Shown piece after piece: positions 30,212 to 50,855 of a DNA stretch of 64,000 nt. Position numbers and translations under genes: made by a program. This DNA is from a virus, in the IMG/VR virus record IMGVR_UViG_3300042296_000700, positions 43,128-107,127 of that record, one strand, 5' to 3'. Under the pieces are notes generated by a model that made no database searches, was not told where the DNA came from, and was given only the letters and a program-made list of their open reading frames with translations. Position 1 is the first letter of the stretch, and every line of letters starts with the position of its first letter.

Positions 30212-30466
30212 ATGGCTATTGACTTCCCTAACTCCCCAGCAACCAACGATACCTTCTCTGATTCTGGTAAAACTTGGAAGTACAACGGATATGCATGGTT
30301 GTTGCAAACCATTCCTACTGCTCTCGCGAATGGTTCTATTTCTTTAGCGCAGATTGCACAAGGTGGGGCAACTGCAGGGCAGGCTCTAGTGTGGAGTGGT
30401 TCTGTTTGGGCTCCGAATGATGCGTTGCGCGACAATCTTATCAAGTTCTACATGGAGGTCATCTGA
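30212..30466 (+). CDS. Small fibre-related protein
   Basis: 84 residues; the ATG at 30212 follows the previous stop by 2 bp. AIDFPNSPATNDTFSDSGKT then WKYNGYAWLLQ is a common phage fibre motif, and ATAGQALVWSGSVWAPNDAL resembles the repeat units of the larger fibres. It may be an attachment subunit. It couples by TGATG to the next gene. Confidence 0.65.
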   Translation: MAIDFPNSPATNDTFSDSGKTWKYNGYAWLLQTIPTALANGSISLAQIAQGGATAGQALVWSGSVWAPNDALRDNLIKFYMEVI

Positions 30467-30825
30467 TGGCTGTAACACAAAAACGTCTTGCTGGTCCTGC
30501 CCAGTTGACTGCAACAACCGCTGTCTATTACACGACACCAATCAGCACTACCACGATTGTCAAACAAATTATTCTAACGAACACTACTTCGTCAGCAAAA
30601 ACTGTGACTGTTCGTTTGAAACCCCTTGGTGTGGCTGAGGCTGCCACACACGACATTATTAGCGGTATGACTATCAACGCTAACGAAACTATGGCTTTCA
30701 ACTGTTCGCTAGTTCTCAACAACAATGGTTCTACAGCAAACGCAACTAACAGCGACCAGTTGACAGCATTGTGTAGTTCGGCAACGTCAGTCAATATTAC
30801 GATTGTAGGTATTCAAGAGGCATAA
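30466..30825 (+). CDS. Small beta-sandwich structural protein (paralogue B)
   Basis: 119 residues. It aligns by eye with the 101-residue protein at 27148-27453: YYTTPISTTTIVKQIILTNT, then SAKTVTVRLKPLG. It differs by a longer loop near residues 80-95. It is coupled by TAATG to the next gene. The duplication brackets the 918-residue structural gene. Confidence 0.65.
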   Translation: MAVTQKRLAGPAQLTATTAVYYTTPISTTTIVKQIILTNTTSSAKTVTVRLKPLGVAEAATHDIISGMTINANETMAFNCSLVLNNNGSTANATNSDQLTALCSSATSVNITIVGIQEA

Positions 30826-31532
30826 TGGCTGGCATGGTTCGCTACCCGGCGTTGAACGCCATGGCGTCATTTATTGATGCCCCTGACTCCGTCTATGGCA
30901 CTGGCAATGACGGTTCTGTAACCATGGACGGAAGTACTATCGTTATCGGTATTACGCCCTCTTCAAATGTTTATACGATGGCTCGCGACACATATTTCTA
31001 TAATCTGACCATTAGTTCGGGTGTGCGTTTAAACCCAAATGGTTATCGTGTTTTTGTAAAGAATCAGTTAATACTCGGTAGCAGCGCAATGATTGGTTAT
31101 ACGACAGGTTTTGCTTCTGCTGGTTCTATCCAACAGGGTGGGGCAGCAAGCACTCCAGTTACTCATAGTCTTGGAGGTGCGTCGCAAACACAAACTGCCA
31201 CATTGCCAATCGCTTCGCTTGGCGGCTCGCAATACTTTCAACAGCCGTTGCAGGCAATAGATGGTTTTTCTGTTACCGCATCTGGCGGACCAACATTTTT
31301 ACGCGGTGGCGCTGGAGGAGTAGGTCAGGCTGGTGGAGGGGTAGTAATTCTTGCTGCCCGCTACATCTCTGGACCGACATCTGGGAGCGCAACAATTTCT
31401 GCTAAAGCAACATCTCCTGCTGGTGGTGGAGTGATTCTTCTTGTTTCATCTGGCGCAACATTGCCTACGACTGTAACAACAGACGTGACTGGTTATGCCT
31501 CTGGGATATTCTACTATATGCAGTTGGTATAA
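30825..31532 (+). CDS. Glycine-rich structural protein, short form
   Basis: 235 residues. Residues 18-90 (DSVYGTGNDGSVTMDG, FYNLTISSGVRLNPNGYRVF) form a domain that recurs in the giant protein encoded next. A Gly-rich stretch (FLRGGAGGVGQAGGGVVIL) is followed by a beta C-terminus (VTTDVTGYASGIFYYMQL). It looks like an unexpanded paralogue of the 1029-residue protein. Confidence 0.7.
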   Translation: MAGMVRYPALNAMASFIDAPDSVYGTGNDGSVTMDGSTIVIGITPSSNVYTMARDTYFYNLTISSGVRLNPNGYRVFVKNQLILGSSAMIGYTTGFASAGSIQQGGAASTPVTHSLGGASQTQTATLPIASLGGSQYFQQPLQAIDGFSVTASGGPTFLRGGAGGVGQAGGGVVILAARYISGPTSGSATISAKATSPAGGGVILLVSSGATLPTTVTTDVTGYASGIFYYMQLV

Positions 31533-31533
31533 A

Positions 31534-34500
31534 ATGGCTGCGCTTGAAAGAACAGGAACAAATAGGGAACTGTACAGGATTGGAGATATCGGTCCTGGTG
31601 GTGGGACGATTTTCCTTACCCCAAGTTCAACAGATAACACTACTGGTAAATATTTTGAAGTCGCTCCTCCCACGTGGACGGGGTCACTTGGGAATACGTT
31701 AACGCGAACGAACCTATGTAAAACAAGTTCTTTTGATGGTGGTGTTGGTTTATGGACTGCCAATAGTGGGGCAGTAATCACAACTGATACAAACGAGCAT
31801 CTTGTCAGTGGAAGTTCACTAAAAATTACGTCTTCAACAAGTAATTACAACAACGCCATACATGCCCTGATACCCATTACTGCTGGTCAGAAATATGTTT
31901 ATAGTGCGTACGTAAAAAATGTTGGCGGAAATACGCGACCTGTTTACCTCGCTGTTATTTGGTTTGCATCAAACGGTTCAACTGTTGTAGGAAGCGAAAT
32001 GAACTCTGTTTCTCAGGGAGACCTTGCTATTGCAGACGGCTGGCGGCGCAGATGGGTTGCTGGAACAGCACCAATTGGCTCTGCATTCGCTCGTCTGCAT
32101 ATTTTAAGTGGCACCACGGGTCTGACAACAGCCGACATCACGCGTGCTGACGGTGTTTTGTTTGAACAAAGTTCTTTTTCTTTTTTATATCCGTTTTTTG
32201 ATGGTGTGAAATCATATTTAGATTCGTCAATGGCATATACGGCTTTACCAAACCCTGGTACCGCAGATATTAGAACTCTTACTAATGAGGGTTACAGTAT
32301 TATTCCAGAAACACGAGCGTGGTCTGGCAGTGCATATAACTCGTCATCAACGAGCACATGGATTGGTGGGACAGCAACACCAAAACTTAGAACAAGCAAC
32401 GTTTCTTTAACTGGATACACTTTATATCCTGATATTGGATTAGGGGCGTCACAGACAGATATCATATTTAATTTTGGTTCACAAGAAAATACTGCAGCAT
32501 ATGTTGCAAAACAATATTCTGGCGGTGGTTATACAGACTGGTTTCTTCCATCAACATATGAACTCAAGGCACTCGGTGAGGCGCAATTTGCCACTTATAG
32601 CGTCGGGGTAGTTTCTACCTCTACGACTACATATGCCACTTCTTCTACTTCTTCTTCTATATTGATGAGAAGTTGGGTTGGTAGCACAAGTAGTAATGTG
32701 GGTATTTATGAGCCAGTCAATGTGCGTCCAGTACGAATGTTTTCTGCAACACCGTCAACGCATGTGCAACGTGCAGGTAACGACTCGGTGTATGGGAACG
32801 GATATGACGGCGATGTCACCATTCTTGGTTCAGGACAAATAACTTATCTTTCCAGAGATATGTATTACAACAATTTGGTTATACCATCGCAAACAATGCT
32901 TCACACTAATGGTTACAGAGTTTTTGTTCGTAACAAACTAACTGTTAATGGATACATTGGCGTCAGCAGTGGTTCAAACACGATATTTGGTTTACTTTAT
33001 GGAGAACCAAGCGCAGTTACGTCAAGGACAGTCTCTGGAACGACATCCACGAATGCTATTACATATCGTATTGGCGGCAAGGGTGGGGGCGCTACCGCTG
33101 ATGGTACGAGTCTTCTCCCTACAGGAATTCTGTATTCTTTAGATGTTGCTACTAAAGGTTTGTTCATTGACCCTAATAACAGTCAGTTGACACCTTTGAC
33201 TGGTGGTGCTCTTGGTACGCAAGGAAGTCAAGGAACAACATATCCAGCGTTAACTGATTCTGATACTTGGTCTGGTAAAACTGCTCCTACGTCTTGGCCT
33301 AGCCAGTCTGGTAATGCGGGTAATGCGGGTAATGCGGGTGGTGCTGGTGGAACTGTTGTTGCTGGTGCGTTAGGTGGTGCTGGTGGATATCCACCAAATG
33401 CCCATACTGGCACTGGTACCACTCCTGGTGGAAGAGGCAGTACAGGTAACTCTGGTAATCCGGGTACGGCTGGAAATCCTGGTGCGACAGGCAACTCAGG
33501 AAATCCTGGTACGGCAGGCAACCCTGGTACGGCAACTGGAGCAAATCCGAGTGTAGGTGGTGCTGGAGGTTCGGCTGGGCAAGGTGGCGCTGTCGTTGTT
33601 ATTGCAGCCAAAACTATTACTGGTACTGGAAGAATTGTTTCGCTAGGTATTTCTGGCGCATTAGGTTCTGCTGGAACTACTGGTACTGGTGGTACGGCTG
33701 GTACGGCTGGTACGGCTGGAAACGCAGGTACTACTGGCGCAGCGGGCAATGCTGGTAGTGCTGGCACGGCTGGAAATACTGGAGACGCGGCACCAGGTAT
33801 TAACACAAGTCCATATCATGCTCATCACCGTCTCGGTTCTGGACATATGAATACTCAGTACGCAAATGGCGGAGGGCATGATAGCGAACCTGGCGCGCAT
33901 ATTCCGCATGCTCATCTTTCGCAGGATTATCATGACCAGCATCGCGGCTCGCGACTTCATTTTCATATGCCTCACGGCGGCAATACGGTAAACCATAACC
34001 CTCCTGTAGTTACGAGTAACAAGCCATTGACACATGGACCAGGTACGGTCTTTCATAATCCTTCACACATTCACCATGCAGGTCACACGCACAACCCGCA
34101 TCATGATGCTCCTCACGGACATAACCATCACACACATAGAAACGATGGGGCGACTTTACACAGTCCTCATACTTTCGGACCACACCACGGTGCTGCAAAC
34201 GGGCAGGGCAATGACGGAACTCATGCCTACTACTACTGGGGCGGACATCACGGAACACAACATGCAGGCGGACCTCACACCCATGGGTCGGCAGGCAAAC
34301 ATATCGGGTCACCCCACACTGGTACTCATTATGCAGGAGGTGCTGGTGGCGCAGGCGGACCCGCTGGCATTGCTGGAACGGCAGGAACAGGTGGTACGGG
34401 GGGCACAGGGGGTCTCGCTGGACCAGGAGGCACTGCGGCACCCGCACAACCTCAGGGCGGCACAGGTAAGCGTGGGGGTGCAGGCGGTGGAGGAGGTATC

Positions 34501-34623
34501 ATTGTGATAACCGATAGCACCTCATTGGGAAGCGTAACTACCGACGTTACTGCTGGTGCAACTCAAGACTCAGATTTCAACACAGCCTCTTCAGGGTTTG
34601 TATACTTAATTCAGAACACATAG
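31534..34623 (+). CDS. Giant glycine- and histidine-rich adhesin-like structural protein
   Basis: 1029 residues; the ATG at 31534 follows the previous gene directly. Order: an actinobacterial-type GDIGPGGGTIFLT domain start (8-45); an apparent insert with a carbohydrate-binding-like sandwich (about 55-235); the resumed domain ending DWFLPSTYELKAL (about 265-350); a copy of the short-form domain (about 410-480, AGNDSVYGNGYDGDVTI, TNGYRVFVRNKL); collagen-like Gly-Asn/Thr repeats (about 580-750); a His-rich region with dozens of His (about 765-940); Gly-rich end and beta cap. The His block may bind metal ions. A host-surface contact role is inferred. Confidence 0.75.
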   Translation: MAALERTGTNRELYRIGDIGPGGGTIFLTPSSTDNTTGKYFEVAPPTWTGSLGNTLTRTNLCKTSSFDGGVGLWTANSGAVITTDTNEHLVSGSSLKITSSTSNYNNAIHALIPITAGQKYVYSAYVKNVGGNTRPVYLAVIWFASNGSTVVGSEMNSVSQGDLAIADGWRRRWVAGTAPIGSAFARLHILSGTTGLTTADITRADGVLFEQSSFSFLYPFFDGVKSYLDSSMAYTALPNPGTADIRTLTNEGYSIIPETRAWSGSAYNSSSTSTWIGGTATPKLRTSNVSLTGYTLYPDIGLGASQTDIIFNFGSQENTAAYVAKQYSGGGYTDWFLPSTYELKALGEAQFATYSVGVVSTSTTTYATSSTSSSILMRSWVGSTSSNVGIYEPVNVRPVRMFSATPSTHVQRAGNDSVYGNGYDGDVTILGSGQITYLSRDMYYNNLVIPSQTMLHTNGYRVFVRNKLTVNGYIGVSSGSNTIFGLLYGEPSAVTSRTVSGTTSTNAITYRIGGKGGGATADGTSLLPTGILYSLDVATKGLFIDPNNSQLTPLTGGALGTQGSQGTTYPALTDSDTWSGKTAPTSWPSQSGNAGNAGNAGGAGGTVVAGALGGAGGYPPNAHTGTGTTPGGRGSTGNSGNPGTAGNPGATGNSGNPGTAGNPGTATGANPSVGGAGGSAGQGGAVVVIAAKTITGTGRIVSLGISGALGSAGTTGTGGTAGTAGTAGNAGTTGAAGNAGSAGTAGNTGDAAPGINTSPYHAHHRLGSGHMNTQYANGGGHDSEPGAHIPHAHLSQDYHDQHRGSRLHFHMPHGGNTVNHNPPVVTSNKPLTHGPGTVFHNPSHIHHAGHTHNPHHDAPHGHNHHTHRNDGATLHSPHTFGPHHGAANGQGNDGTHAYYYWGGHHGTQHAGGPHTHGSAGKHIGSPHTGTHYAGGAGGAGGPAGIAGTAGTGGTGGTGGLAGPGGTAAPAQPQGGTGKRGGAGGGGGIIVITDSTSLGSVTTDVTAGATQDSDFNTASSGFVYLIQNT

Positions 34624-34631
34624 GAGAAAAA

Positions 34632-34874
34632 ATGCCTTTATTTGACGAAATTGACACTAAGCAGCGTCTACAGATTTTGCGTGGAACTTACAAATCTTTA
34701 GAAATTGAACTTTTTGAAGTTTTAACACGTCTGGGAATTGATGTTGATGACTACACTTATGGTGAGCATCCAGAATTTGCTGATTCAGAAGATAACTGGA
34801 ATAAACGTCGCGTTATTGAACTAGAAGCAACTTTGGCTACAATTAAGGCAAAGATTGACTCGCTGGCGGCATAA
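34632..34874 (+). CDS. Small acidic helical protein
   Basis: 80 residues with TAGGAGAAAA upstream. It is mostly helical with an acidic loop (YGEHPEFADSEDNW) and a C-terminal coiled coil (VIELEATLATIKAKIDSLAA). It is the first small gene after the giant adhesin and starts the run of closely spaced genes leading to the halogenase. Function unknown. Confidence 0.6.
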   Translation: MPLFDEIDTKQRLQILRGTYKSLEIELFEVLTRLGIDVDDYTYGEHPEFADSEDNWNKRRVIELEATLATIKAKIDSLAA

Positions 34875-34877
34875 GTA

Positions 34878-35297
34878 ATGCAAAGAGTCTTCTATGTGCC
34901 TGCATCAACACCAATTACTGCTGAACTAAGCGAGCAAGCGGAATTGCTTGCTCTATCTGTGCTGCATGGTGAAAGTGCTTTATCGCGTTATGTTGACTTT
35001 GACCGCGACATTGCGCAGCCTATTTCTTTGCCATCCGAAAAAATATGCCTTTTCGCTAACGAAGTCCCAATAATGCTTCATCAAAGCATTGAGGTAACTA
35101 ATGATTTTGTTGATATGCGTGACGGCGTAACCCTTGTTTTGAATGGTAAAAAAATTATTGAGCCGTTGATACTTGAAAAACACTACGCTCGTTATGCCAT
35201 TGAGTGCACTGGATACGGTGTTCAAGTGTTTGACATATTTGATAAATCTATGCGAATTTTAGAACACGGGGAGTATTATGTCGTTAACCCTGAGTAA
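34878..35297 (+). CDS. Unknown protein of the halogenase cassette
   Basis: 139 residues, 3 bp after the previous gene. Mixed alpha/beta with a beta-rich second half (TLVLNGKKIIEPLILEKHYA, GYGVQVFDIF, EHGEYYVV), perhaps a small cupin or jelly-roll-like fold, but no metal motif is visible. It overlaps the oxygenase gene by 20 bp, suggesting coupled translation and a related job. Confidence 0.6.
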   Translation: MQRVFYVPASTPITAELSEQAELLALSVLHGESALSRYVDFDRDIAQPISLPSEKICLFANEVPIMLHQSIEVTNDFVDMRDGVTLVLNGKKIIEPLILEKHYARYAIECTGYGVQVFDIFDKSMRILEHGEYYVVNPE

Positions 35298-35865
35298 ACC
35301 AGCGCCATGTATTTTTGTTTACGAAAATGCTTTGACCGATGGCGAAAAGTTTATTTCAATGCTTGAAGAGCAAACCAATGACGAATGGTCACCACTGTCT
35401 TGGGATTATTCAAAAACTGGTTCAGGACAAATCAGTGAGTACCGCTCATCGCGCATATGTTCACTGTTGGACATTACACGCCCCTGTCCAAGTACGCCAA
35501 TCTCAGATTTGTTAAATAAATCTATTCTCAAAGATATAGATACGTGCCTTAGTGATTACAGCACATATCACGGGATTACTGCGTTTATCGGCAATGAAGG
35601 TTGGATTGTTCTCAAATATGAGGGTCAAGCGCAATATCGCACCCACTGGGACCACGCACCAGATAACGCCAGAACAGTTTCTATTGTGGCATTCCCTTAC
35701 TCAACAACCAAGGTTGGCGGAGAACTAACATTCCCGCATTTCGGGATAACAATTAAACCCAAAACTGGTTCAGTAGTTATATTTCCATCTAATTTCCCCT
35801 ACACGCATACGGCGCATCCAGTTGAAGATGGTGTCAAGTATTCACTTGTTACGTGGTTGAGGTAG
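35278..35865 (+). CDS. 2-oxoglutarate/Fe(II)-dependent oxygenase, prolyl-4-hydroxylase type (1)
   Basis: 195 residues. The iron ligands are visible as His123-x-Asp125 (RTHWDH) and a distal His180 (THTAHPV), followed by Lys187 (VKYSLVTW) in the position that binds 2-oxoglutarate. GGELTFPHFGITIKPKTGSV is the usual core strand pair. Such enzymes hydroxylate a protein residue or small molecule using 2-oxoglutarate and O2. The substrate is unknown. It is one of two such enzymes flanking the halogenase in this cassette. Confidence 0.8.
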   Translation: MSLTLSKPAPCIFVYENALTDGEKFISMLEEQTNDEWSPLSWDYSKTGSGQISEYRSSRICSLLDITRPCPSTPISDLLNKSILKDIDTCLSDYSTYHGITAFIGNEGWIVLKYEGQAQYRTHWDHAPDNARTVSIVAFPYSTTKVGGELTFPHFGITIKPKTGSVVIFPSNFPYTHTAHPVEDGVKYSLVTWLR

Positions 35866-35867
35866 AG

Positions 35868-36128
35868 ATGGAATACGAAAACATTCCAAATGAAAGATTT
35901 GCATGGCTCGGCATTGCACCGCCACCAGATGGTGTTGTTGTTCCAGAAGATAATCCCGTCCCAATTGTTAAGGACATATTGCCACCTAATCAAGTGACTG
36001 GCGCAGACGAAGGTCTTGGTATATTCAGGTGGCTTATGGCAGACGAAGATGAGCGACAAGACACATTGTCAGGGTGTAGATTGCTTGACAACTTCGTTTA
36101 TATGCAAATACCAAAGGAAGACGATTGA
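35868..36128 (+). CDS. Unknown small acidic protein
   Basis: 86 residues; the ATG at 35868 is 2 bp after the oxygenase stop and is preferred over an upstream GTG. It is Pro- and Asp/Glu-rich (GIAPPPDGVVVPEDNPVP) with a short C-terminal helix. It ends in TGATG overlap with the next gene. No family was recognised. Confidence 0.55.
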   Translation: MEYENIPNERFAWLGIAPPPDGVVVPEDNPVPIVKDILPPNQVTGADEGLGIFRWLMADEDERQDTLSGCRLLDNFVYMQIPKEDD

Positions 36129-36358
36129 TGGCTATAACATTTGACTACTCTGATAGTAACAATCATATTCAGGCTTTAACGGCACAGGTTAAAACTTTGA
36201 TTGATGTTGACTACGATTTTGTTGACGCTAACAACGTTGAGGCTTTTAGGGTTGCTGCAAAAGCAGTGAATGAACCAGTGCGCAGTAAATTGCTTCACAT
36301 GCTCAACTTTATTGTTTTTAATAGTCAAGTAAATAGCGTGTATGGAGATAAACAATGA
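36128..36358 (+). CDS. Unknown small protein
   Basis: 76 residues; the ATG overlaps the preceding stop. Predicted helical (HIQALTAQVKTLIDVDYDFV, RSKLLHMLNFIVFN). The next gene begins inside its stop codon. A partner role for one of the cassette enzymes is possible but unproven. Confidence 0.55.
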   Translation: MAITFDYSDSNNHIQALTAQVKTLIDVDYDFVDANNVEAFRVAAKAVNEPVRSKLLHMLNFIVFNSQVNSVYGDKQ

Positions 36359-37098
36359 GTGAGATTAATATTGTCACAGTCGGGAATGCGACTCATCGCA
36401 TAAGTTCATTTTCGTGTCCTCCACAGTTGCCCTCTATTATTGAGTTCAAGGATTTTAGTCGTGCTATCTATTCTCGGTTGACAGAATCAGATAAATTTGA
36501 TTTACGTACTTCTTCACGTTCTGAAGAGTTTCTTGCTTATGGTTTGGTAGGAGCCCCTGGTGGCGAGGACATTGCCCCAGTTGTTTGGAGTTCACATGGG
36601 CAAGCAGAAATGTATGGACGGCTATGTGGGGCAAAGGACGTTTTTATACATAGCGTTCCGTACGCTATTTATTTTGCTGCCCATAACTACGAAAATGTTT
36701 ATGTTCTAAATTGTGCTTCAACACTTATTGCGGGTTCGCATGATACTGCGAGTGATGCAGATATCACAAATGTAACAACACTTTCATGGGACGATGCTTA
36801 CAACAATATGCCCGAACTTGATATGGCTGTTGTGATGTATTCACATATCTGTGCCGACGATTCCTTATTTGATGCAATCATGAACGCTATGAAGCCAAAC
36901 GGAGTAGTTATCATCCACAACTCAAGCAATGGTGGTGCCCTGTATGAGGTACTTGGAGACAAGAAGCCTCTAGATATGGCTGCACAGGTTTCTCTTTCCG
37001 CTCTGCTACACAAAAAGATTCTTGACAGAGGCGATTTTTTGACGCAACATTTTCAGGGCTGGGTTTCTCACACTGTCTGCGTTAAACTGCCATCATGA
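36355..37098 (+). CDS. Rossmann-like protein, possibly methyltransferase-related
   Basis: 247 residues in an ATGA overlap on both sides. The alternating strands and helices, with MAVVMYSHICADD then MKPNGVVIIHNSS, resemble the second half of class I methyltransferases. The glycine-rich cofactor loop is not clear (VYVLNCASTL is a candidate strand), so SAM binding is doubtful. It lies directly upstream of the halogenase and is translationally coupled to it. Confidence 0.5.
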   Translation: MSEINIVTVGNATHRISSFSCPPQLPSIIEFKDFSRAIYSRLTESDKFDLRTSSRSEEFLAYGLVGAPGGEDIAPVVWSSHGQAEMYGRLCGAKDVFIHSVPYAIYFAAHNYENVYVLNCASTLIAGSHDTASDADITNVTTLSWDDAYNNMPELDMAVVMYSHICADDSLFDAIMNAMKPNGVVIIHNSSNGGALYEVLGDKKPLDMAAQVSLSALLHKKILDRGDFLTQHFQGWVSHTVCVKLPS

Positions 37099-38585
37099 CT
37101 AACGAACACGAACCTATAAGTTTTGGGATTGTTGGCTCTGGTACGGCAGGGCTAATTTCTGCAATCATGCTCAGGCAGGCATTTCCGTTATCTAAAGTAA
37201 CGATTATTTCCTCAAGTACAATCGGCATCATTGGGGTCGGAGAAGGAAGCACTGAACATTGGCGCGAATTTATGAATTTGTGCGATATTCCGCTTGAACA
37301 GATGTTAGTGAAAACAGCCGCTACACATAAATACGGTATTCGTTTTGAAGGTTGGTCAGGTTCGTTCCCTGATTATTTTCATAGTGTTTCTGGCGATGAA
37401 CAACTTTACGGGTGGGGTCATTACCCGACATATGCGGGCATTCTTGAGAATGGCGACTCATTAACGAGCCAGACGAGCAGTATTGGTTTAATTCAAAACA
37501 AAATTAAACGCGAGAATTTACATTCCAATACTAACCAATACCATTTTGACACTTTCAAACTTAATAACTATTTTACCGAACTATGCTTTAAGCGTTCCAT
37601 CAAAATGATTGATGGTCAAGTTACCGATGTTAAGCGCCACAGTGAAACAGGAAACATCTCTAGCGTACTTCTTGATAACGGAAGTTCTGTAGAAGCAGAC
37701 CTTTGGATTGACGCAAGTGGATTCTCCCGTGTATTAATGAACAAACTAGATGCTTCTAATTGGAATTCATTCTCTGACTACCTCCTCGTTGATTCTGCAA
37801 TAGCCGCCCCATCCGAATCATCATCAGACGGAATACGTCCATACACGAGAGCAATAGCCAAAGATGCTGGATGGATATGGGAAATCCCAACACAAGAACG
37901 GCGTGGAAATGGATACGTTTACTCATCGCAGTTTGTTTCTGACGATGAGGCTATTGCAACTTTAGAGAAACAAATCGGACCGCTATCTATTGCTCCACGA
38001 ACATTCAAATTTGATGCAGGTCATGTTAAGGAAGTTTGGGTCAAGAATTGTATGGCTATCGGTTTGGCTGCTGCTTTTGTTGAACCGCTAGAAGCAACAT
38101 CAATTGGTAGTGCAATTCAGCAAATAAAATATGCAATACCGTATTTTGCGTCATTTGAGCAAAAACATACGGCATCGCAAAAGCATTACAACAAACTGTT
38201 CACAACAATGATGGATAACATTTTGACGATGATTCGCCTTCATTACATATCGGATAGGCGTGATACTCCATTCTGGACTGCTTCTTCTGAAATGAAAATT
38301 AATGACTCGCTTCAAGAACTTCTTGACCTTTGGCAAGAGAGAGTTCCATGTCGTAATGACGTAGGAACAATCAATGGGGAGATGTTCCATGCACCTCACT
38401 TATTCCACGTTGCACAAGGACAAGGTGTTTTAAATAGTCGCGCAGCAACCTTGATGATTGACAATTTTAATCTTCGCAAACAAGTGGAGTTAGATATTTC
38501 AAATCGTCGCCATGCCCGTTTTAATCATGAGTTGGTTGACCATCGTGAATCGCTTGATATGCAATTTGAGGACAAACTACTGTGA
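37095..38585 (+). CDS. Flavin-dependent halogenase (tryptophan halogenase family)
   Basis: 496 residues. All family marks are visible: FAD-binding GSGTAG at 14-19, the GVGEGS motif at 47-52, a Lys at 79 (THKYGIRFEGW), WIWEIP at 260-265, and PLEATS at 331-336 whose Glu333 matches the second catalytic residue of PrnA. These enzymes use reduced FAD, O2 and halide to make hypohalous acid and transfer it through the Lys. A cyanophage halogenase (VirX1) is known, so phage carriage has precedent. No flavin reductase gene is seen nearby; the host would have to supply FADH2. Confidence 0.9.
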   Translation: MTNEHEPISFGIVGSGTAGLISAIMLRQAFPLSKVTIISSSTIGIIGVGEGSTEHWREFMNLCDIPLEQMLVKTAATHKYGIRFEGWSGSFPDYFHSVSGDEQLYGWGHYPTYAGILENGDSLTSQTSSIGLIQNKIKRENLHSNTNQYHFDTFKLNNYFTELCFKRSIKMIDGQVTDVKRHSETGNISSVLLDNGSSVEADLWIDASGFSRVLMNKLDASNWNSFSDYLLVDSAIAAPSESSSDGIRPYTRAIAKDAGWIWEIPTQERRGNGYVYSSQFVSDDEAIATLEKQIGPLSIAPRTFKFDAGHVKEVWVKNCMAIGLAAAFVEPLEATSIGSAIQQIKYAIPYFASFEQKHTASQKHYNKLFTTMMDNILTMIRLHYISDRRDTPFWTASSEMKINDSLQELLDLWQERVPCRNDVGTINGEMFHAPHLFHVAQGQGVLNSRAATLMIDNFNLRKQVELDISNRRHARFNHELVDHRESLDMQFEDKLL

Positions 38586-39388
38586 GCCTGCGGAAAATTG
38601 ATAAGTATAGCGATATTAAAGTTCCTGAGGGAAAGATTGTTATTGTCCCTTGGGATAACCGTCTCCTTGAACTGCCTCCTTATTCTAACGATAGGGCTCC
38701 AGTTCCTCAGTGGATTAAAGATTCTCCTAGCACGCAAGGTTCAATTAGGCGCTGTGCAGCAACAATGGATTTTGTTTCTTCTGGCATAACAATCCCTGCT
38801 TGGACAAACTTTCGTTTTAACAAAACCGAAGGTGAAGATTCATGGGATTTTACTTGCGACCAGTTTGATGGCTTTGGGGCACATGAACATTTTGTGAATC
38901 AACCGTTTGCTTTTGAGCAAACAGGCTCATGTCCTATGACTAAAGTGCGGGCGATGGAAAATGTGGGGTACCCAAAGTTGGTTAACCCTTTTAGAATCAT
39001 TACTGCACCAGGTTGGTCAACAATGATTTTGCCAGTTCTTTATGAGCCATCACGACATTTTTCTGTATTACCAGGCATTGTAAACACCGACTATTATCAT
39101 GAATCAAACTGTGTGCTTAATTTGCTTGGCAAAGAGTCATTCACTATCCCGTGGGGCGCACCCTTGATGCATCTAATTCCAATTAAAAGAAGCACGATGG
39201 CGCACAGTATTGAATTCCTTGATGAAAGTGCATTCAAGTATGTTGTTGGGCGCGGATTTGGTTCTGGTGCTTTAAAACCCACTGGGGATGGATGGTCTTC
39301 TGCTCGTCTTTATCGCGGTTATAGGTTTAGGCGCGATGCAGAACTCGCTGAAGATAGCCAGAAAAAAAAGTGGTGGAAAACTAAATGA
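38582..39388 (+). CDS. Unknown phage protein of the halogenase cassette
   Basis: 268 residues with a GTG start inside the halogenase stop. The pattern APVPQWIKD, then RCAATMDFVSSGITIPAWT, then INTDYYHE-like and WGAPLMHLIPIKR resembles a family of aquatic-phage proteins related to DUF6065, beta-rich and of unknown role. The C-terminus is basic (QKKKWWKTK). It lies between halogenase and second oxygenase, so it may bind the shared substrate. Confidence 0.55.
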   Translation: MSLRKIDKYSDIKVPEGKIVIVPWDNRLLELPPYSNDRAPVPQWIKDSPSTQGSIRRCAATMDFVSSGITIPAWTNFRFNKTEGEDSWDFTCDQFDGFGAHEHFVNQPFAFEQTGSCPMTKVRAMENVGYPKLVNPFRIITAPGWSTMILPVLYEPSRHFSVLPGIVNTDYYHESNCVLNLLGKESFTIPWGAPLMHLIPIKRSTMAHSIEFLDESAFKYVVGRGFGSGALKPTGDGWSSARLYRGYRFRRDAELAEDSQKKKWWKTK

Positions 39389-40080
39389 TTTTCCCTTCTG
39401 GCGTTGGTGGCGCTATTGCTTACAAAGATAATGTTTTAAGCGATTCGTTGTGCGCTGACATTATTGAATATGCGGAAACACACAGCAGCATGATGTACGA
39501 AGGTCCAACTATTAGTGGAATTAACAAGCATATAAAGAATTGTTACGATTTTTCTTTGTCGTATTACAGTGACCATGCAGAAACTGATGAGCAGCGAAAA
39601 GAATTGGCTGCTCTTAATGATTTGGTGTTTGAATCTTTTTCTCCTGCATTGGAAGAATATTGCTCATACTACGAAGGCTTAAATAACTGGACTAACAGAT
39701 ACGACACTGGATATCAATTTCAAAAATATGCCGCCAATGAAGGGTTCTACAAGCCTCATTGTGATGGCGGAGTATATGAGGCTGAGGGTCTTGGAAATCG
39801 GGTACTTGGTGTCGTCATGTATCTGAACACCGTAACCAAAGGTGGGGGGACAAACTTTCCGCTGCATGAAGTTACTGTTGATTCTGTTTGTGGACGTATT
39901 TCGTTTTTCCCTGCTAACTTCACGCATCCTCATGCTGGGTTGATGCCGCTGTCTTCTCCCAAGTACATTATTAGTACTTTTTGCTATACGGTTCCGAGTG
40001 CCCCTAGTGTGGATACTGCGGTTGCGGAACTTGCTTTGAACTATGATGAGCAGTTCAAGCAGACGCCAGATGCATTATAA
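39385..40080 (+). CDS. 2-oxoglutarate/Fe(II)-dependent oxygenase, prolyl-4-hydroxylase type (2)
   Basis: 231 residues. Iron ligands are His125-x-Asp127 (YKPHCDGG) and His183 (FTHPHAG), with Lys193 (SPKYIIST) for 2-oxoglutarate. LGVVMYLNTVTKGGGTNFPL is the typical double-stranded core of prolyl-4-hydroxylase-like enzymes. It shares little beyond motifs with the first oxygenase, so the two probably act on different targets. It ends the overlapping cassette. Confidence 0.85.
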   Translation: MIFPSGVGGAIAYKDNVLSDSLCADIIEYAETHSSMMYEGPTISGINKHIKNCYDFSLSYYSDHAETDEQRKELAALNDLVFESFSPALEEYCSYYEGLNNWTNRYDTGYQFQKYAANEGFYKPHCDGGVYEAEGLGNRVLGVVMYLNTVTKGGGTNFPLHEVTVDSVCGRISFFPANFTHPHAGLMPLSSPKYIISTFCYTVPSAPSVDTAVAELALNYDEQFKQTPDAL

Positions 40081-42427: not shown

Positions 42428-45139
42428 ATGGGGAAAATATCGCGGTTAACACGGCTGCTCATATTCATACCTGTAGCAGTAATGGCATGGGTCGTACCCC
42501 CTATTTCCTCTGTCCACGCAACAGGATATCCCGAAGACCAAAACTGGGAAGCCGTCACCTATGGGGACGGAAAATTTGTTGCTGTTGCCTCATCTGGTAA
42601 CGGTAACCGTGTGATGACGTCAACAGATGGCGACTACTGGGTTTCAAGAACTTCTGCTTCCGACAGCAACTGGCAAGGGATTACATACGCCGACAATCAG
42701 TTTGTTGCAGTTGGCTCAAATGCGGTCATGACCTCGCCTGACGGTGTTACGTGGACATCAAGAACTGCACCAACAGGAGAATGGCAAGCAATCACGAACT
42801 GTGGCGGTCTTTTTGTTGCTACCGCGACTTGGGGGAGTAGTTATGTAATGTCTTCCACGGATGGTGTTGAATGGACATTGCGCACTCCCGCCTATGGATG
42901 GTCACATGATGCGGTTGCCTGTAGTGCAGAAGTTCCACGGTTTGTTTCCGTGTCTCAGTTCGGTAGAGCATGGTCTTCCGCTAATGGCACTACTGGCTGG
43001 TCTACTCAAAACCCTGGTGCAATTGTAGATATCCGAACAGTTGCGTTTGGCAATGGTCGCTTTACATGGCTTGAGTACAGCACAAACTCGGGAAATAGAT
43101 ATGGTGGTTACTCCACGAACGGATTGAACTGGTCTGCTGGAATTGTTCCATCTAATCAATGGAAGTACATCACCTACGGCGGAGATAAATTTATTGCGGT
43201 AGCGGAAGGCGGATTAAATTCCCGTTCTGCTTATTCAACTGATGGCGCGAACTGGACGCTAGGTTCTGGGGTTCCGAATAACTCGTGGCAAGGTGTTGCT
43301 TATGGGGCTGGGAAATATGTTGCTGTAGCAAACTCTGGAACAGACAACAGGGTTATGACTTCTACGGATGGTCAATCATGGGAGAGTTTGTCTGTCACGC
43401 CACCTCCGTACTTTAATGCGGTCACAAACTTGACGGCTGTTGCCAACGCAGATGGAAGCGTTGACCTTGATTGGGATGCGCCAACGTCAAGCAATGTTGA
43501 TATCTACGCCTACGCGGTTACGTTCTATGACCTTGACGAAATTGACGGTACCACCTCTGGCGGTTGGGGGGTTTGGACTAACCAAGGAACTACTTACTCA
43601 CTGGGTGAATGGATGTTCTCTGGAGGCAACCCCGTAACTACTGGATTCGGACCCGTTCGTTTTGGTATCAAAGCGGGAAATCAAAGTTGTTTCTCTAACG
43701 AAGGTGTGGGTCCATGCGTTTACGGACCCGAAACCACTGTTGATGTAACGGTTCTTGACCCAACTCCACCTTCAACTACAACAACTGAACCTGAAACAAC
43801 TACGACCACTCAACCAGAACCAACCACTACTACTCAACCAGAACCAGAAATTACTCAACCAGAAACAACTACAACAGAGCCAGAAACTGTTGTAACCATT
43901 CCAGAAACCACGACTACCGTTCCAGAATCACCGCCTTCAGGAACAACAACAACCGTTCCATTAGAGGAGGAAACGACAGTTGAGACACCCACGAACACGG
44001 ATAATTCCGAAGATACAGAATCCACCACCTCGCTACCACAATATGCCCCAGAACAAGAGGCAACAACGGATGAAACGCCGATAGTTGTTCCCGAAGATAC
44101 GCAAGACGCAGCCGATACTGCGGTTGCAGACATTTTTGACGGTCCTATGTCAGACGACAAACTCGCGGACGCTGTTGATGATTTGGTTGCTGACGCTGAA
44201 ACACCTGAAGAACTAACGGCGGTTGTTACTGCGCTTCTTGACCAAGAACTATCGGATGAACAGTTCTCTACCGTTATTGATTCTGTTTTCTCTGAACCTT
44301 TATCTGATGAAAATTTTGCTGCTGCTATAGACGCTGTGTTTGAAGACCCGACTCAACTATCGGAAGCACAGTTTGAGGATGCAGTTGCCGCAGTGTTTGA
44401 TGCACCTCTTTCTGATGAGCAGTTCCAAGACGCCGTTGCAGCAGTCTTTGAAGACACCGAGTCTCTGAGTGACGAGCAGTTTGATACCGCAGTACAGGCA
44501 GTCTTTGATGAGCCTCTAAGTACAGAGCAATTCGCTGAAGCCCTTAGTGCAGTCTTTGATGAACCTATTTCTGACGATAAATTTGATGCGATTATTGATG
44601 CTGTTTTGGATGAACCAATTTCCGATGAGCAATTTGAGGAACTGGTTAATGTCTTGGAATCTGACACAGTTACTGAGGAGCAGGTTTCGGCTGCTGTTGA
44701 CTCGGTTATTGAAAATGGGGTTACGGAAGACCAAGCCGTTGACCTCGCTACGAGCGAAAAAGTTTTGCAAAGTATTGACGGTGAGCAGGCAGCAGAAATC
44801 TTTGATGCTGTTGATATCTCAAATGTAAACCCAGAAGAGGCAGCGCAACTGGTTGCAGCGGTTCAAGACGCCCCAACCGAGGTTAGGGAATCTCTGGAAT
44901 CTGAAATTAACGTTTTTGACGGAGCCATTGATATCTATGTTCCGCTCGGCTCTGGGGTTGACGTCGGCACACGTCGCGTCATTGTTGCTGCTGCTGGTGT
45001 ATTATTTGTAGCACCAACTATTATGCCTATTACTCCAACAGCCCCATTAAATGGTAGTGGTAATAATAATCCATCTCCAAATGGTGGCGGAGGTGCTTCG
45101 GTGTCAACAGAACCACGCAGAAGGGTTAGAGGAAAATGA
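42428..45139 (+). CDS. Secreted, membrane-anchored seven-bladed propeller adhesin
   Basis: 903 residues. Order: signal peptide with cleavage likely after VHA (residue 31); seven repeats of the type W..(I/V)TYG.G.FVAV...S.DG..W (about 39-322), a probable seven-bladed beta-propeller; FnIII-like domain (about 323-430); Thr/Glu/Pro-rich stalk (440-560); about ten acidic helical repeats of the type AVFDEPLSDEQF (560-800); a hydrophobic helix near 850 and a Gly/Arg-rich end. This is a bacterial surface-protein layout known from aquatic actinobacteria, unlike virion fibres. It was probably acquired from a host. Superinfection exclusion or altered cell adhesion are possible roles. Confidence 0.8.
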   Translation: MGKISRLTRLLIFIPVAVMAWVVPPISSVHATGYPEDQNWEAVTYGDGKFVAVASSGNGNRVMTSTDGDYWVSRTSASDSNWQGITYADNQFVAVGSNAVMTSPDGVTWTSRTAPTGEWQAITNCGGLFVATATWGSSYVMSSTDGVEWTLRTPAYGWSHDAVACSAEVPRFVSVSQFGRAWSSANGTTGWSTQNPGAIVDIRTVAFGNGRFTWLEYSTNSGNRYGGYSTNGLNWSAGIVPSNQWKYITYGGDKFIAVAEGGLNSRSAYSTDGANWTLGSGVPNNSWQGVAYGAGKYVAVANSGTDNRVMTSTDGQSWESLSVTPPPYFNAVTNLTAVANADGSVDLDWDAPTSSNVDIYAYAVTFYDLDEIDGTTSGGWGVWTNQGTTYSLGEWMFSGGNPVTTGFGPVRFGIKAGNQSCFSNEGVGPCVYGPETTVDVTVLDPTPPSTTTTEPETTTTTQPEPTTTTQPEPEITQPETTTTEPETVVTIPETTTTVPESPPSGTTTTVPLEEETTVETPTNTDNSEDTESTTSLPQYAPEQEATTDETPIVVPEDTQDAADTAVADIFDGPMSDDKLADAVDDLVADAETPEELTAVVTALLDQELSDEQFSTVIDSVFSEPLSDENFAAAIDAVFEDPTQLSEAQFEDAVAAVFDAPLSDEQFQDAVAAVFEDTESLSDEQFDTAVQAVFDEPLSTEQFAEALSAVFDEPISDDKFDAIIDAVLDEPISDEQFEELVNVLESDTVTEEQVSAAVDSVIENGVTEDQAVDLATSEKVLQSIDGEQAAEIFDAVDISNVNPEEAAQLVAAVQDAPTEVRESLESEINVFDGAIDIYVPLGSGVDVGTRRVIVAAAGVLFVAPTIMPITPTAPLNGSGNNNPSPNGGGGASVSTEPRRRVRGK

Positions 45140-45645: not shown

Positions 45646-46440
45646 ATGAGCCTCCCATACATCAAACTCGTAGTCCCAACTGCACTCAAGCAGTATAAGA
45701 ACGGTCAGTTGGCTGACAGCGTTTTGGCTTCCGTTAAAACTGGCGGAAAGATGTACGCACCAGTCGCAGCGCAATTCAATAAGTTGTACGACGCCGCCCT
45801 GGCTGCTGGTCATAAACTCAGGAATGTTGGCGACTACCGTTCGTTTGAAGGTCAACTCGCAATGTTCCGTGACCGCTATGTGCTTGAAAATACTGGTACT
45901 GGCGTAACCCGCACTTTTGAAGGAAAGACTTGGTACCTCAAGAAGGGCAAGGCTCCTTCTGCGGCTCCAGACCCAACAGGTCTCAAAGGCTCAAATCATG
46001 GCTGGGGGCTGGCTATTGACCTCGGATACGAGTCTCGCGGTCAGTTGCTTGGCATGGGTGGCGCTTGTTTTGACTGGATGTGTGCAAACGCTCCCAAGTA
46101 CGGTTTCTATCTCCAAGGTAACGATAAGAAATCTAAAGAGTTTGAAGCATGGCACTGGCAGTATGCTCTCGGAGATGCATCGCCTGATGGCTCGGCTCCA
46201 GCCGCTGCTCCTGCTGCTGCTCCTGTAGCAGGCGGACTTCACTTTGATTACCCTGGCTTTGATGTCAAAAAAGGTTACAAGGGCGATGTCGCGAAACTGG
46301 TACAAGCAGTTATCGGCGCTAAGCCCGATGGCGACTTCGGTGCTAAGTCTGAGGCTTCACTCAAGGCATGGCAAACAAGTAAGGGTCTTCACGCTAACGG
46401 CGTAGTTTGCAAAGATTGCTGGAAGGTAATGTTCGGCTGA
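45646..46440 (+). CDS. Endolysin: M15 (VanY-type) peptidase with peptidoglycan-binding domain
   Basis: 264 residues, GAAGGAAAA before the start. The zinc peptidase shows SNHGWGLAIDLG (His118, Asp125) and EAWHWQYA (His170), the M15 D-Ala-D-Ala carboxypeptidase/L-Ala-D-Glu peptidase pattern. A linker APAAAPAAAP (about 185-195) leads to a C-terminal peptidoglycan-binding domain (GDVAKLVQAVIGAKPDGDFG, then SLKAWQTSKGL). It cuts the peptide stem of the host wall at the end of infection. Confidence 0.9.
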   Translation: MSLPYIKLVVPTALKQYKNGQLADSVLASVKTGGKMYAPVAAQFNKLYDAALAAGHKLRNVGDYRSFEGQLAMFRDRYVLENTGTGVTRTFEGKTWYLKKGKAPSAAPDPTGLKGSNHGWGLAIDLGYESRGQLLGMGGACFDWMCANAPKYGFYLQGNDKKSKEFEAWHWQYALGDASPDGSAPAAAPAAAPVAGGLHFDYPGFDVKKGYKGDVAKLVQAVIGAKPDGDFGAKSEASLKAWQTSKGLHANGVVCKDCWKVMFG

Positions 46441-49713: not shown

Positions 49714-50337
49714 ATGACGACGATTGTGGGTATTCAGGGGGATGGTTTTGCTTTGCTTGCGACGGATAGTCGTATCTCTAGTTTTGATGAGAAGGGTACT
49801 GCGTATCAGTATACGACTTTGGGTGGGGGGTCTAGCAAACTTGCTTATAACGGGAAGTATCTGTTAGGTGCAGCAGGGGATGTGAGAGCAATTAACATTT
49901 TGCATCATGCTTTCCATCCGCCGTTGTGTGCTCTGACTCTTAAAGGGAAACGGTTGGATACTTTTATTACAACCAAATTCATTCCTGCTTTACGTCACTG
50001 CTTTGAAGAACAGGGGTATGCGGCTCCTAACGATAAGGAGAACAGTCATATCGCTGAGCATGATTCAACAATCATCGCCGTCATCAACGCAACCATTTAC
50101 ATCATAGATGGTGACTACTCATGGACAAACGACGCCACAGGACTATACGCAGCAGGCACAGGGTCAAGTTACGCACTAGGCGCACTACAAGCACTCAACC
50201 ACAAAAACCCCACACCCCAACAAGCCAAAACAATCGCACTCAAAGCACTCAACATCGCAGCCAAATACGACCCCTACACAGGGGCACCACACCACACATA
50301 CCTGCAAGAACACAACCGAAACAGCACCCAACAATGA
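49714..50337 (+). CDS. Proteasome beta subunit-like Ntn hydrolase
   Basis: 207 residues. MTTIVGIQGDGFALLATDSR is the start of a 20S proteasome beta/HslV-type fold, with Thr2 or Thr3 available as N-terminal nucleophile, and LYAAGTGSSYALGALQAL is the conserved later strand-helix. A Lys equivalent to Lys33 may be in the GGGSSKLAYNG segment. Actinobacteria carry proteasomes, so it could mimic, poison or replace a host subunit. Codon endings switch from G/T to A/C near 50,065 inside the gene. It overlaps whiB by ATGA. Confidence 0.8.
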   Translation: MTTIVGIQGDGFALLATDSRISSFDEKGTAYQYTTLGGGSSKLAYNGKYLLGAAGDVRAINILHHAFHPPLCALTLKGKRLDTFITTKFIPALRHCFEEQGYAAPNDKENSHIAEHDSTIIAVINATIYIIDGDYSWTNDATGLYAAGTGSSYALGALQALNHKNPTPQQAKTIALKALNIAAKYDPYTGAPHHTYLQEHNRNSTQQ

Positions 50338-50855
50338 CACACCCAAACCAAATAAACTTAACCGATATACAGGGAATACCCCCCACCCCACAGACATGGT
50401 ACGACCAAGCCAACTGCAAAGGGAAAACCCACCTCATGTTCCCAAAAGAACACAAAGACATCACATACATCAAACAAGCACGCAACATCTGCAAACAATG
50501 CACAGTCAAAGAACAATGCCTCACCACCGCACTCCAATACCCAGCAATAGACATGCACGGAGTATGGGCAGGACTCACCAGCAGACAACTAGCAACAGAA
50601 CAAAAACGCAGAGGCATCAAAGCCACCCGCCCATCACTAGCCCAAATGTTCCCCGCTACCCACAACGCACCCCGCACAAATCGCAAAACAAAAGCCCACC
50701 AAACTCAACAGGCACAGGAACACAATCCGAACGACCACACGGATTCAACACCCTCTCCCCAGCAAGATACGCACGCAACACAGAACCAGCATCAGGAAGA
50801 ACCCTCCCATCAACAAGACGAGGCAACCCCCGACCCTCACGAACAGCAGACATAA
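50334..50855 (+). CDS. whiB: WhiB-family iron-sulfur transcription regulator
   Basis: 173 residues from the ATG in the preceding stop. The four cluster cysteines are Cys28, Cys53, Cys56 and Cys62 (ICKQCTVKEQC), followed by MHGVWAGLTSRQL with the GVWAG turn at 76-80. WhiB proteins occur only in Actinobacteria and their phages and bind the primary sigma factor. The basic, Pro/Gln/Thr-rich C-terminus (about 95-173) is unusually long and overlaps an opposite-strand gene. It may shut off host genes, as reported for phage TM4 WhiB. Confidence 0.9.
   Translation: MTHPNQINLTDIQGIPPTPQTWYDQANCKGKTHLMFPKEHKDITYIKQARNICKQCTVKEQCLTTALQYPAIDMHGVWAGLTSRQLATEQKRRGIKATRPSLAQMFPATHNAPRTNRKTKAHQTQQAQEHNPNDHTDSTPSPQQDTHATQNQHQEEPSHQQDEATPDPHEQQT

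Follow-up and report, generated by a model that had tools for sequence, protein, structure and literature searches.

A phage halogenase-oxygenase cassette as a proposed modification unit for a His-rich tail adhesin

We analyzed a 64,000-nucleotide stretch of DNA from a lake phage, referred to below as the window, which covers bases 43128-107127 of the 107 kb virus record IMGVR_UViG_3300042296_000700. At 34632-40080 it carries a cassette of nine same-direction genes encoding, in order, p80, p139, OxyA, p91, p77, p247, a flavin-dependent halogenase, p268, and OxyB. Directly upstream, at 31495..34623, lies the gene for a 1042-amino-acid (aa) Gly-rich protein with a His-rich tip, which we assign as a tail adhesin from its position and composition. 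The cassette, the adhesin gene, and the two genes described upstream of it are all on the + strand. The cassette is probably a dedicated post-translational modification unit for this adhesin. In its strongest form, in which the virion tip carries halogenated His, the proposal is a tentative one. The component enzyme families are known; the gene team is new.

An earlier note on this DNA had described a flavin-dependent halogenase and two 2-oxoglutarate (2OG)/Fe(II) oxygenases in a translationally coupled cassette, and these identifications hold. The halogenase (37095..38585) matches Pfam Trp_halogenase (PF04820) at 4.6e-105 over residues 11-453, its whole length. It carries the flavin-binding GxGxxG (GSGTAG from residue 14), GVGEGS from residue 47, K79, WIWEIP from residue 260, and E333. 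In alignments with the solved halogenases PrnA, RebH, Thal, and VirX1, K79 and E333 fall on the catalytic Lys and Glu. Position 79 is Lys in 118/118 non-gapped aligned sequences and position 333 is Glu in 120/120, while WxWxIP is nearly invariant among the aligned relatives. OxyA (35278..35865) and OxyB (39385..40080) are prolyl 4-hydroxylase (P4H)-like and match PF13640 at 1.5e-11 and 7.1e-9, respectively. Both have complete residue sets, H123, D125, H177, and K187 in OxyA and H125, D127, H183, and K193 in OxyB, and nearly all relatives keep the HxD...H iron triad and the Lys/Arg for 2OG. H181 and H183 were both candidates for the distal His of OxyB; H183 is the conserved one. OxyB resembles solved prolyl 4-hydroxylases only weakly in sequence (E 9e-4). 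Every junction from p139 through OxyB overlaps, by 20, 13, 1, 4, 4, 4, and 4 nt in order, the last four as ATGA or GTGA. In comparison with a relative of 80% identity, the ratio of nonsynonymous to synonymous substitution rates (dN/dS) comes to 0.05 in the halogenase and 0.11 in OxyB, with dS saturated for the other cassette genes. Both genes are under purifying selection, and this, together with the conserved co-occurrence described below, indicates that the cassette is more than a chance assembly.

The adhesin gene lies outside the interval reported in the earlier note, and its His-rich tip was missed there. The protein has a conserved N-domain (~residue 427), a Gly-rich region from ~residue 609 with four GNPG, the His-rich tip (33817..34329; 171 aa with 41 His, or 24%), and, from residue 988 on, a Gly-rich C-terminus that is also conserved. 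Because this conserved C-terminus lies after the tip, the reading frame through the tip is vouched for. Relatives keep the architecture and also carry in-frame His-rich segments, the segment itself being highly variable. Regularly 5' of the adhesin is p235 (30825..31532), a 235-aa paralogue of the adhesin N-domain without a His-rich tip. Cysteines, often paired (CC), occur within the His-rich tips of the L028, L029, L020, and L024 adhesins and recall metal sites. HxH motifs in phage fibres are reported to bind iron (PMC11705849), and metal binding by the His-rich tips is possible.

A search of annotated phages with the adhesin N-domain gave no match, and viral contigs were therefore used for its relatives. 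Among unique complete adhesins followed by 3.5 kb of sequence or more, 76/76 have halogenase and p268 behind them, and 72 have an oxygenase. A halogenase-based search yielded 44 viral loci, with p268 behind the halogenase in nearly all and OxyA in most. A p235-based search, which is independent of the enzymes, yielded 57 loci; 49 have the halogenase and 8 do not, all 8 being cut by the contig end. The same gene order occurs on two contigs of a marine Gammaproteobacteria metagenome-assembled genome (MAG) and on one contig of an Actinomycetota MAG. The cassette genes thus recur together in related phages, with OxyB (in about a quarter of relatives), p247, p91, and p77 as optional members. The earlier note had named two outcomes that would count against it, missing co-occurrence and catalytic residues out of register with known halogenases, and neither was observed. 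As for the three unassigned proteins that the earlier note had singled out as possible companions of the halogenase, p268 is its constant partner, p139 is often present, and p247 is confined to a minority of relatives.

The composition of the tip varies with the enzyme set. In a wider adhesin-domain set, which includes more distant relatives and comprises 121 clusters at 80% identity, 84 clusters carry a halogenase no more than 5 kb behind the adhesin, and 28, whose loci extend 5 kb or more downstream, carry none in the locus. A 40-aa segment with 25% His or more occurs in 73/84 halogenase-linked clusters versus 0/28 halogenase-less ones, and one with 20% or more in 79/84 versus 9/28. These nine, at 20-23% in one segment, form a single marine group with 2-3% His overall. 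Halogenase-less tips are Tyr/Pro-rich or built of other repeats, and a whole-record search of 17 halogenase-less records found no halogenase.

The halogenase-less loci also show an exchange of enzymes. Oxygenases and p268-like proteins are kept in 20 of the 28, and a PF11397 transferase was found in 10/16 halogenase-less records versus 0/16 of the halogenase-bearing records searched. PF11397 is the family of Skp1-type GlcNAc transferases. The Skp1 pathway builds a glycan on protein hydroxyproline made by a prolyl hydroxylase (PMC11570480, PMC3515798). At three such loci (L254:10603-13923, L275:11391-15888, and L302:9328-12573) the adhesin is followed by a P4H-like oxygenase, a PF11397 transferase, and p268-like proteins in tandem, two or three per locus, possibly a phage hydroxyproline-glycosylation cassette.

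These patterns bear on the reading of phage halogenases as auxiliary metabolism, in which the substrate of the enzymes would be a small molecule in free form or a metabolite of the host, yielding for example a halogenated Trp or indole signal or antibiotic, and the position beside fibre genes would be incidental. Known halogenases of this fold, as a family, act on free Trp or small molecules. Published accounts class the phage enzymes as auxiliary metabolic genes; a role in antibiotic protection of the host is called speculative (PMC2984593), and modification of host metabolites is proposed (PMC10452541). We nevertheless consider this reading unlikely, given the constant linkage to one adhesin type, the covariation of tip and enzyme set, and the protein-type GlcNAc transferase in halogenase-less relatives. 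Pfam and PHROG searches of the cassette proteins also found no small-molecule biosynthetic enzymes.

The constant partner, p268 (38582..39388), is a 268-aa protein with a predicted dUTPase fold. Its AlphaFold model (pLDDT 80) gave only dUTPases as top Foldseek matches in the PDB (E 6e-5, TM score ~0.5-0.67 depending on target length), and 5/24 members have a Pfam dUTPase match, at best 1.1e-6. It resembles dUTPases in fold and in the surroundings of motifs III and IV, and differs from them in its long extra N- and C-terminal parts and in its catalytic residue. Its motif III, xAIV(H/N)TD(F/Y)YH, aligns with the dUTPase motif AGVIDxDYRGE, with the position of the catalytic Asp occupied by His or Asn (Asn in the window protein, His in most relatives). 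This position is His or Asn in 103/104 halogenase-near sequences and Asp or Glu in 49/51 sequences elsewhere. Since the catalytic Asp is replaced, we reject the reading of p268 as an active dUTPase. Against the Pfam family DUF6065, p268 did not reach the cut-off (best 0.19 among halogenase-linked members); a halogenase-less relative gave 9e-4, also under the cut-off score. A literature search on DUF6065 found no paper. Stand-alone p268/DUF6065-like genes occur in alphaproteobacterial genomes (L401, L403-L408), with no halogenase in the locus.

The halogenase/p268 pairing recurs at the locus of the characterized viral halogenase. The VirX1 sequence is CPUG_00131 of cyanophage Syn10; it is followed directly by CPUG_00130, a p268 homologue, and preceded by Gly-rich fibre genes. 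In syn9, whose p268 homologue is identical to that of Syn10, a 2OG oxygenase follows. By coordinates or features, the halogenase adjoins the p268 gene in 13/15 cyanophage records that have this p268 type; in S-RIM4 the two are not adjacent, and Sf-FR1 was left out of the check. VirX1 is a trimer whose large, open active site accommodates bulky aromatic substrates (PMC8407142). The earlier note had called the gene combination apparently undescribed. The VirX1 locus already groups a halogenase, a dUTPase-fold protein, and an oxygenase near Gly-rich fibre genes, and our literature search found no paper that describes it in this way. Further halogenase matches came from four Campylobacter phage records and human-faecal phage contigs (L055). 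In the actinobacterial lake phage DSL-LC01 (L050, 3073-9615), a distant halogenase lies closely behind collagen-like genes, with a glycosyltransferase next. In pelagiphage HTVC008M (L048, 1-9983), the halogenase lies between the small and large terminase subunits, with several annotated dioxygenases near and no p268 found.

Taken together, the linkage, the tip covariation, the enzyme swap, the p268 change, the VirX1 pairing, the open VirX1 site, and the lack of pathway genes in the cassette narrow the earlier suggestion of a shared target, which had been left as a tail or adhesin protein, a glycan, or a host metabolite. They favour the tail adhesin just upstream, which the enzymes would hydroxylate and halogenate.

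When the tip is delimited by a simple rule, His rises alongside the halogenase, whereas Tyr and Trp do not. His is therefore a serious candidate for the modified residue, with Tyr as the conventional one; halogenated forms of both occur in sponges (PMC8659048). Trp as the only target is unlikely, as 32/84 halogenase-linked tips lack Trp and the L217 tip lacks both Tyr and Trp. The presence of OxyB follows the collagen-like GxPG content of the adhesin weakly (P 0.026 and 0.044, uncorrected for ancestry), and we do not rely on it. An Asn difference in the same comparison is stronger (P 2e-8, likewise uncorrected).

The adhesin might also be the target of a different reaction, with the halogenase-family enzyme oxidising, hydroxylating, or cross-linking aromatic or imidazole side chains through the same flavin chemistry. 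VirX1, which has the same neighbour gene, halogenates in vitro (PMC8407142), and the invariant Lys79 and Glu333 and the nearly invariant WxWxIP likewise make such a reaction quite improbable. It would draw some weight from the fact that the chemistry is known from relatives only, and from a His-rich substrate and co-encoded oxygenases that would fit oxidative maturation or metal chemistry, as at the HxH iron sites of fibres (PMC11705849).

Several observations weigh against an adhesin-modifying cassette. The adhesin-domain tree shows only about two changes in halogenase presence, and shared ancestry therefore inflates the Fisher P of 1e-10 for the halogenase/His covariation; the covariation is clade-level evidence, strong as a pattern and weak as statistics. 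On the p268 tree, halogenase presence or absence likewise switches only about twice, as does the motif III His/Asn pattern. Five of the 84 halogenase-linked adhesins stay below 20% His in any segment, and the marine relative L400 reaches only 10%. In the Gly-rich fibre proteins of Syn10, no 40-residue segment exceeds 15% His. No p268 lies near the halogenases of P-SSM2, HTVC008M, and S-H38, and in the first two of these phages a strongly Gly-rich fibre gene is also missing within 7 kb. The Gly/His-rich adhesin is a presumed virion protein, and we infer the chemistry, the modified residue, the substrate, the halide, the adaptor role of p268, and any effect on adsorption.

The clade-level character of the covariation, together with the further fibre genes nearby, would also suit enzymes that decorate another target on the particle or cell (a glycan, another fibre, or a host receptor), the His-rich tip then being a lineage-shared, metal-binding element of receptor recognition. 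We give this little credence, since the adhesin is the constant neighbour while other cassette genes come and go.

Under the adhesin-modification proposal, a single late transcript would probably encode both the adhesin and the enzymes. Side chains of the adhesin would be hydroxylated by the P4H-like oxygenases, either at Pro in the GNPG repeats or within the tip. The halogenase, with FADH2 supplied by the host, O2, and chloride or bromide, would halogenate aromatic residues in the tip, with His or Tyr as the simplest choice. Having lost the catalytic Asp, p268 may assist the halogenase without hydrolytic activity, as its partner or adaptor, and p247, with its predicted methyltransferase fold, may be an optional extra. 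Modification of the variable tip would precede assembly.

The remaining cassette proteins are mostly without an assigned function. These include the 80-aa p80 (34632..34874) and the 139-aa p139 (34878..35297), both often conserved in relatives, the latter with no Pfam or PHROG match, and the 91-aa p91 (35853..36128) and 77-aa p77 (36128..36358), found in the closest relatives only. The 247-aa p247 (36355..37098) is predicted with low confidence to have a class I S-adenosylmethionine-dependent methyltransferase fold. Its Foldseek match to O-methyltransferases (E 1e-6) comes from a model of only pLDDT 61, and it lacks a canonical GxG. Upstream of p235, relatives also keep a 119-aa protein of unassigned function (30466..30825; phrog_20100).

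The placement among tail genes reported earlier is borne out by the genes upstream of the cassette, which encode a baseplate J protein and tail fibre/structural proteins, and, downstream (45646-46440), by a VanY D-alanyl-D-alanine carboxypeptidase with a peptidoglycan-binding domain, likely the endolysin. The actinobacterial host proposed at the same time is supported by a WhiB domain encoded at 50121-50855 and by the homologous contig L398, binned as Actinomycetota. Between the cassette and the VanY gene, 42428-45139 encodes a 903-aa protein with a signal-peptide-like start, a Thr/Pro/Glu-rich middle, and tandem 'LSDEQFxxAVxAVFD' repeats. This protein is apparently secreted, which is odd within a phage structural region.

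Papers on viral halogenases leave open, or only speculate on, what these enzymes, VirX1 among them, act on in nature. The adhesin-halogenase-p268 unit would offer a first plausible, named target and makes the question a testable proposal. If the proposal is correct, phages would diversify receptor-binding tips by side-chain chemistry (halogen, hydroxyl, or sugar) besides mutation, and would match their enzyme sets to the amino-acid make-up of the tip. Such cassettes would also be a source of enzymes for halogenating His- or Tyr-rich proteins.

Among known systems, the S16/T-even gp38 type of polyglycine-rich distal tail adhesin presumably resembles the window adhesin in architecture, with Gly-rich repeats bearing a variable tail part; here, unlike there, the variable part is one long His-rich segment. 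The Skp1 pathway of Dictyostelium and Toxoplasma resembles the halogenase-less relatives in combining a P4H-like oxygenase with a PF11397-family transferase, and differs from the halogenase-bearing phages, which gave no PF11397 match in the 16 records searched. The tryptophan halogenases PrnA, RebH, and Thal share the fold family, GVGEGS, WxWxIP, and the catalytic Lys and Glu with the window enzyme, but they serve secondary-metabolite pathways on free Trp, whereas the window halogenase has no pathway genes and adjoins an adhesin. The VirX1 locus of Syn10 (PDB 6qgm) shares a phage halogenase of the same family, an adjoining p268 homologue, Gly-rich fibre genes ahead of them, and a 2OG oxygenase a few genes further along. 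It differs in its two tandem halogenases, its other fibre type (at most 15% His per 40 residues), its host, and a p268 homologue without the His/Asn change.

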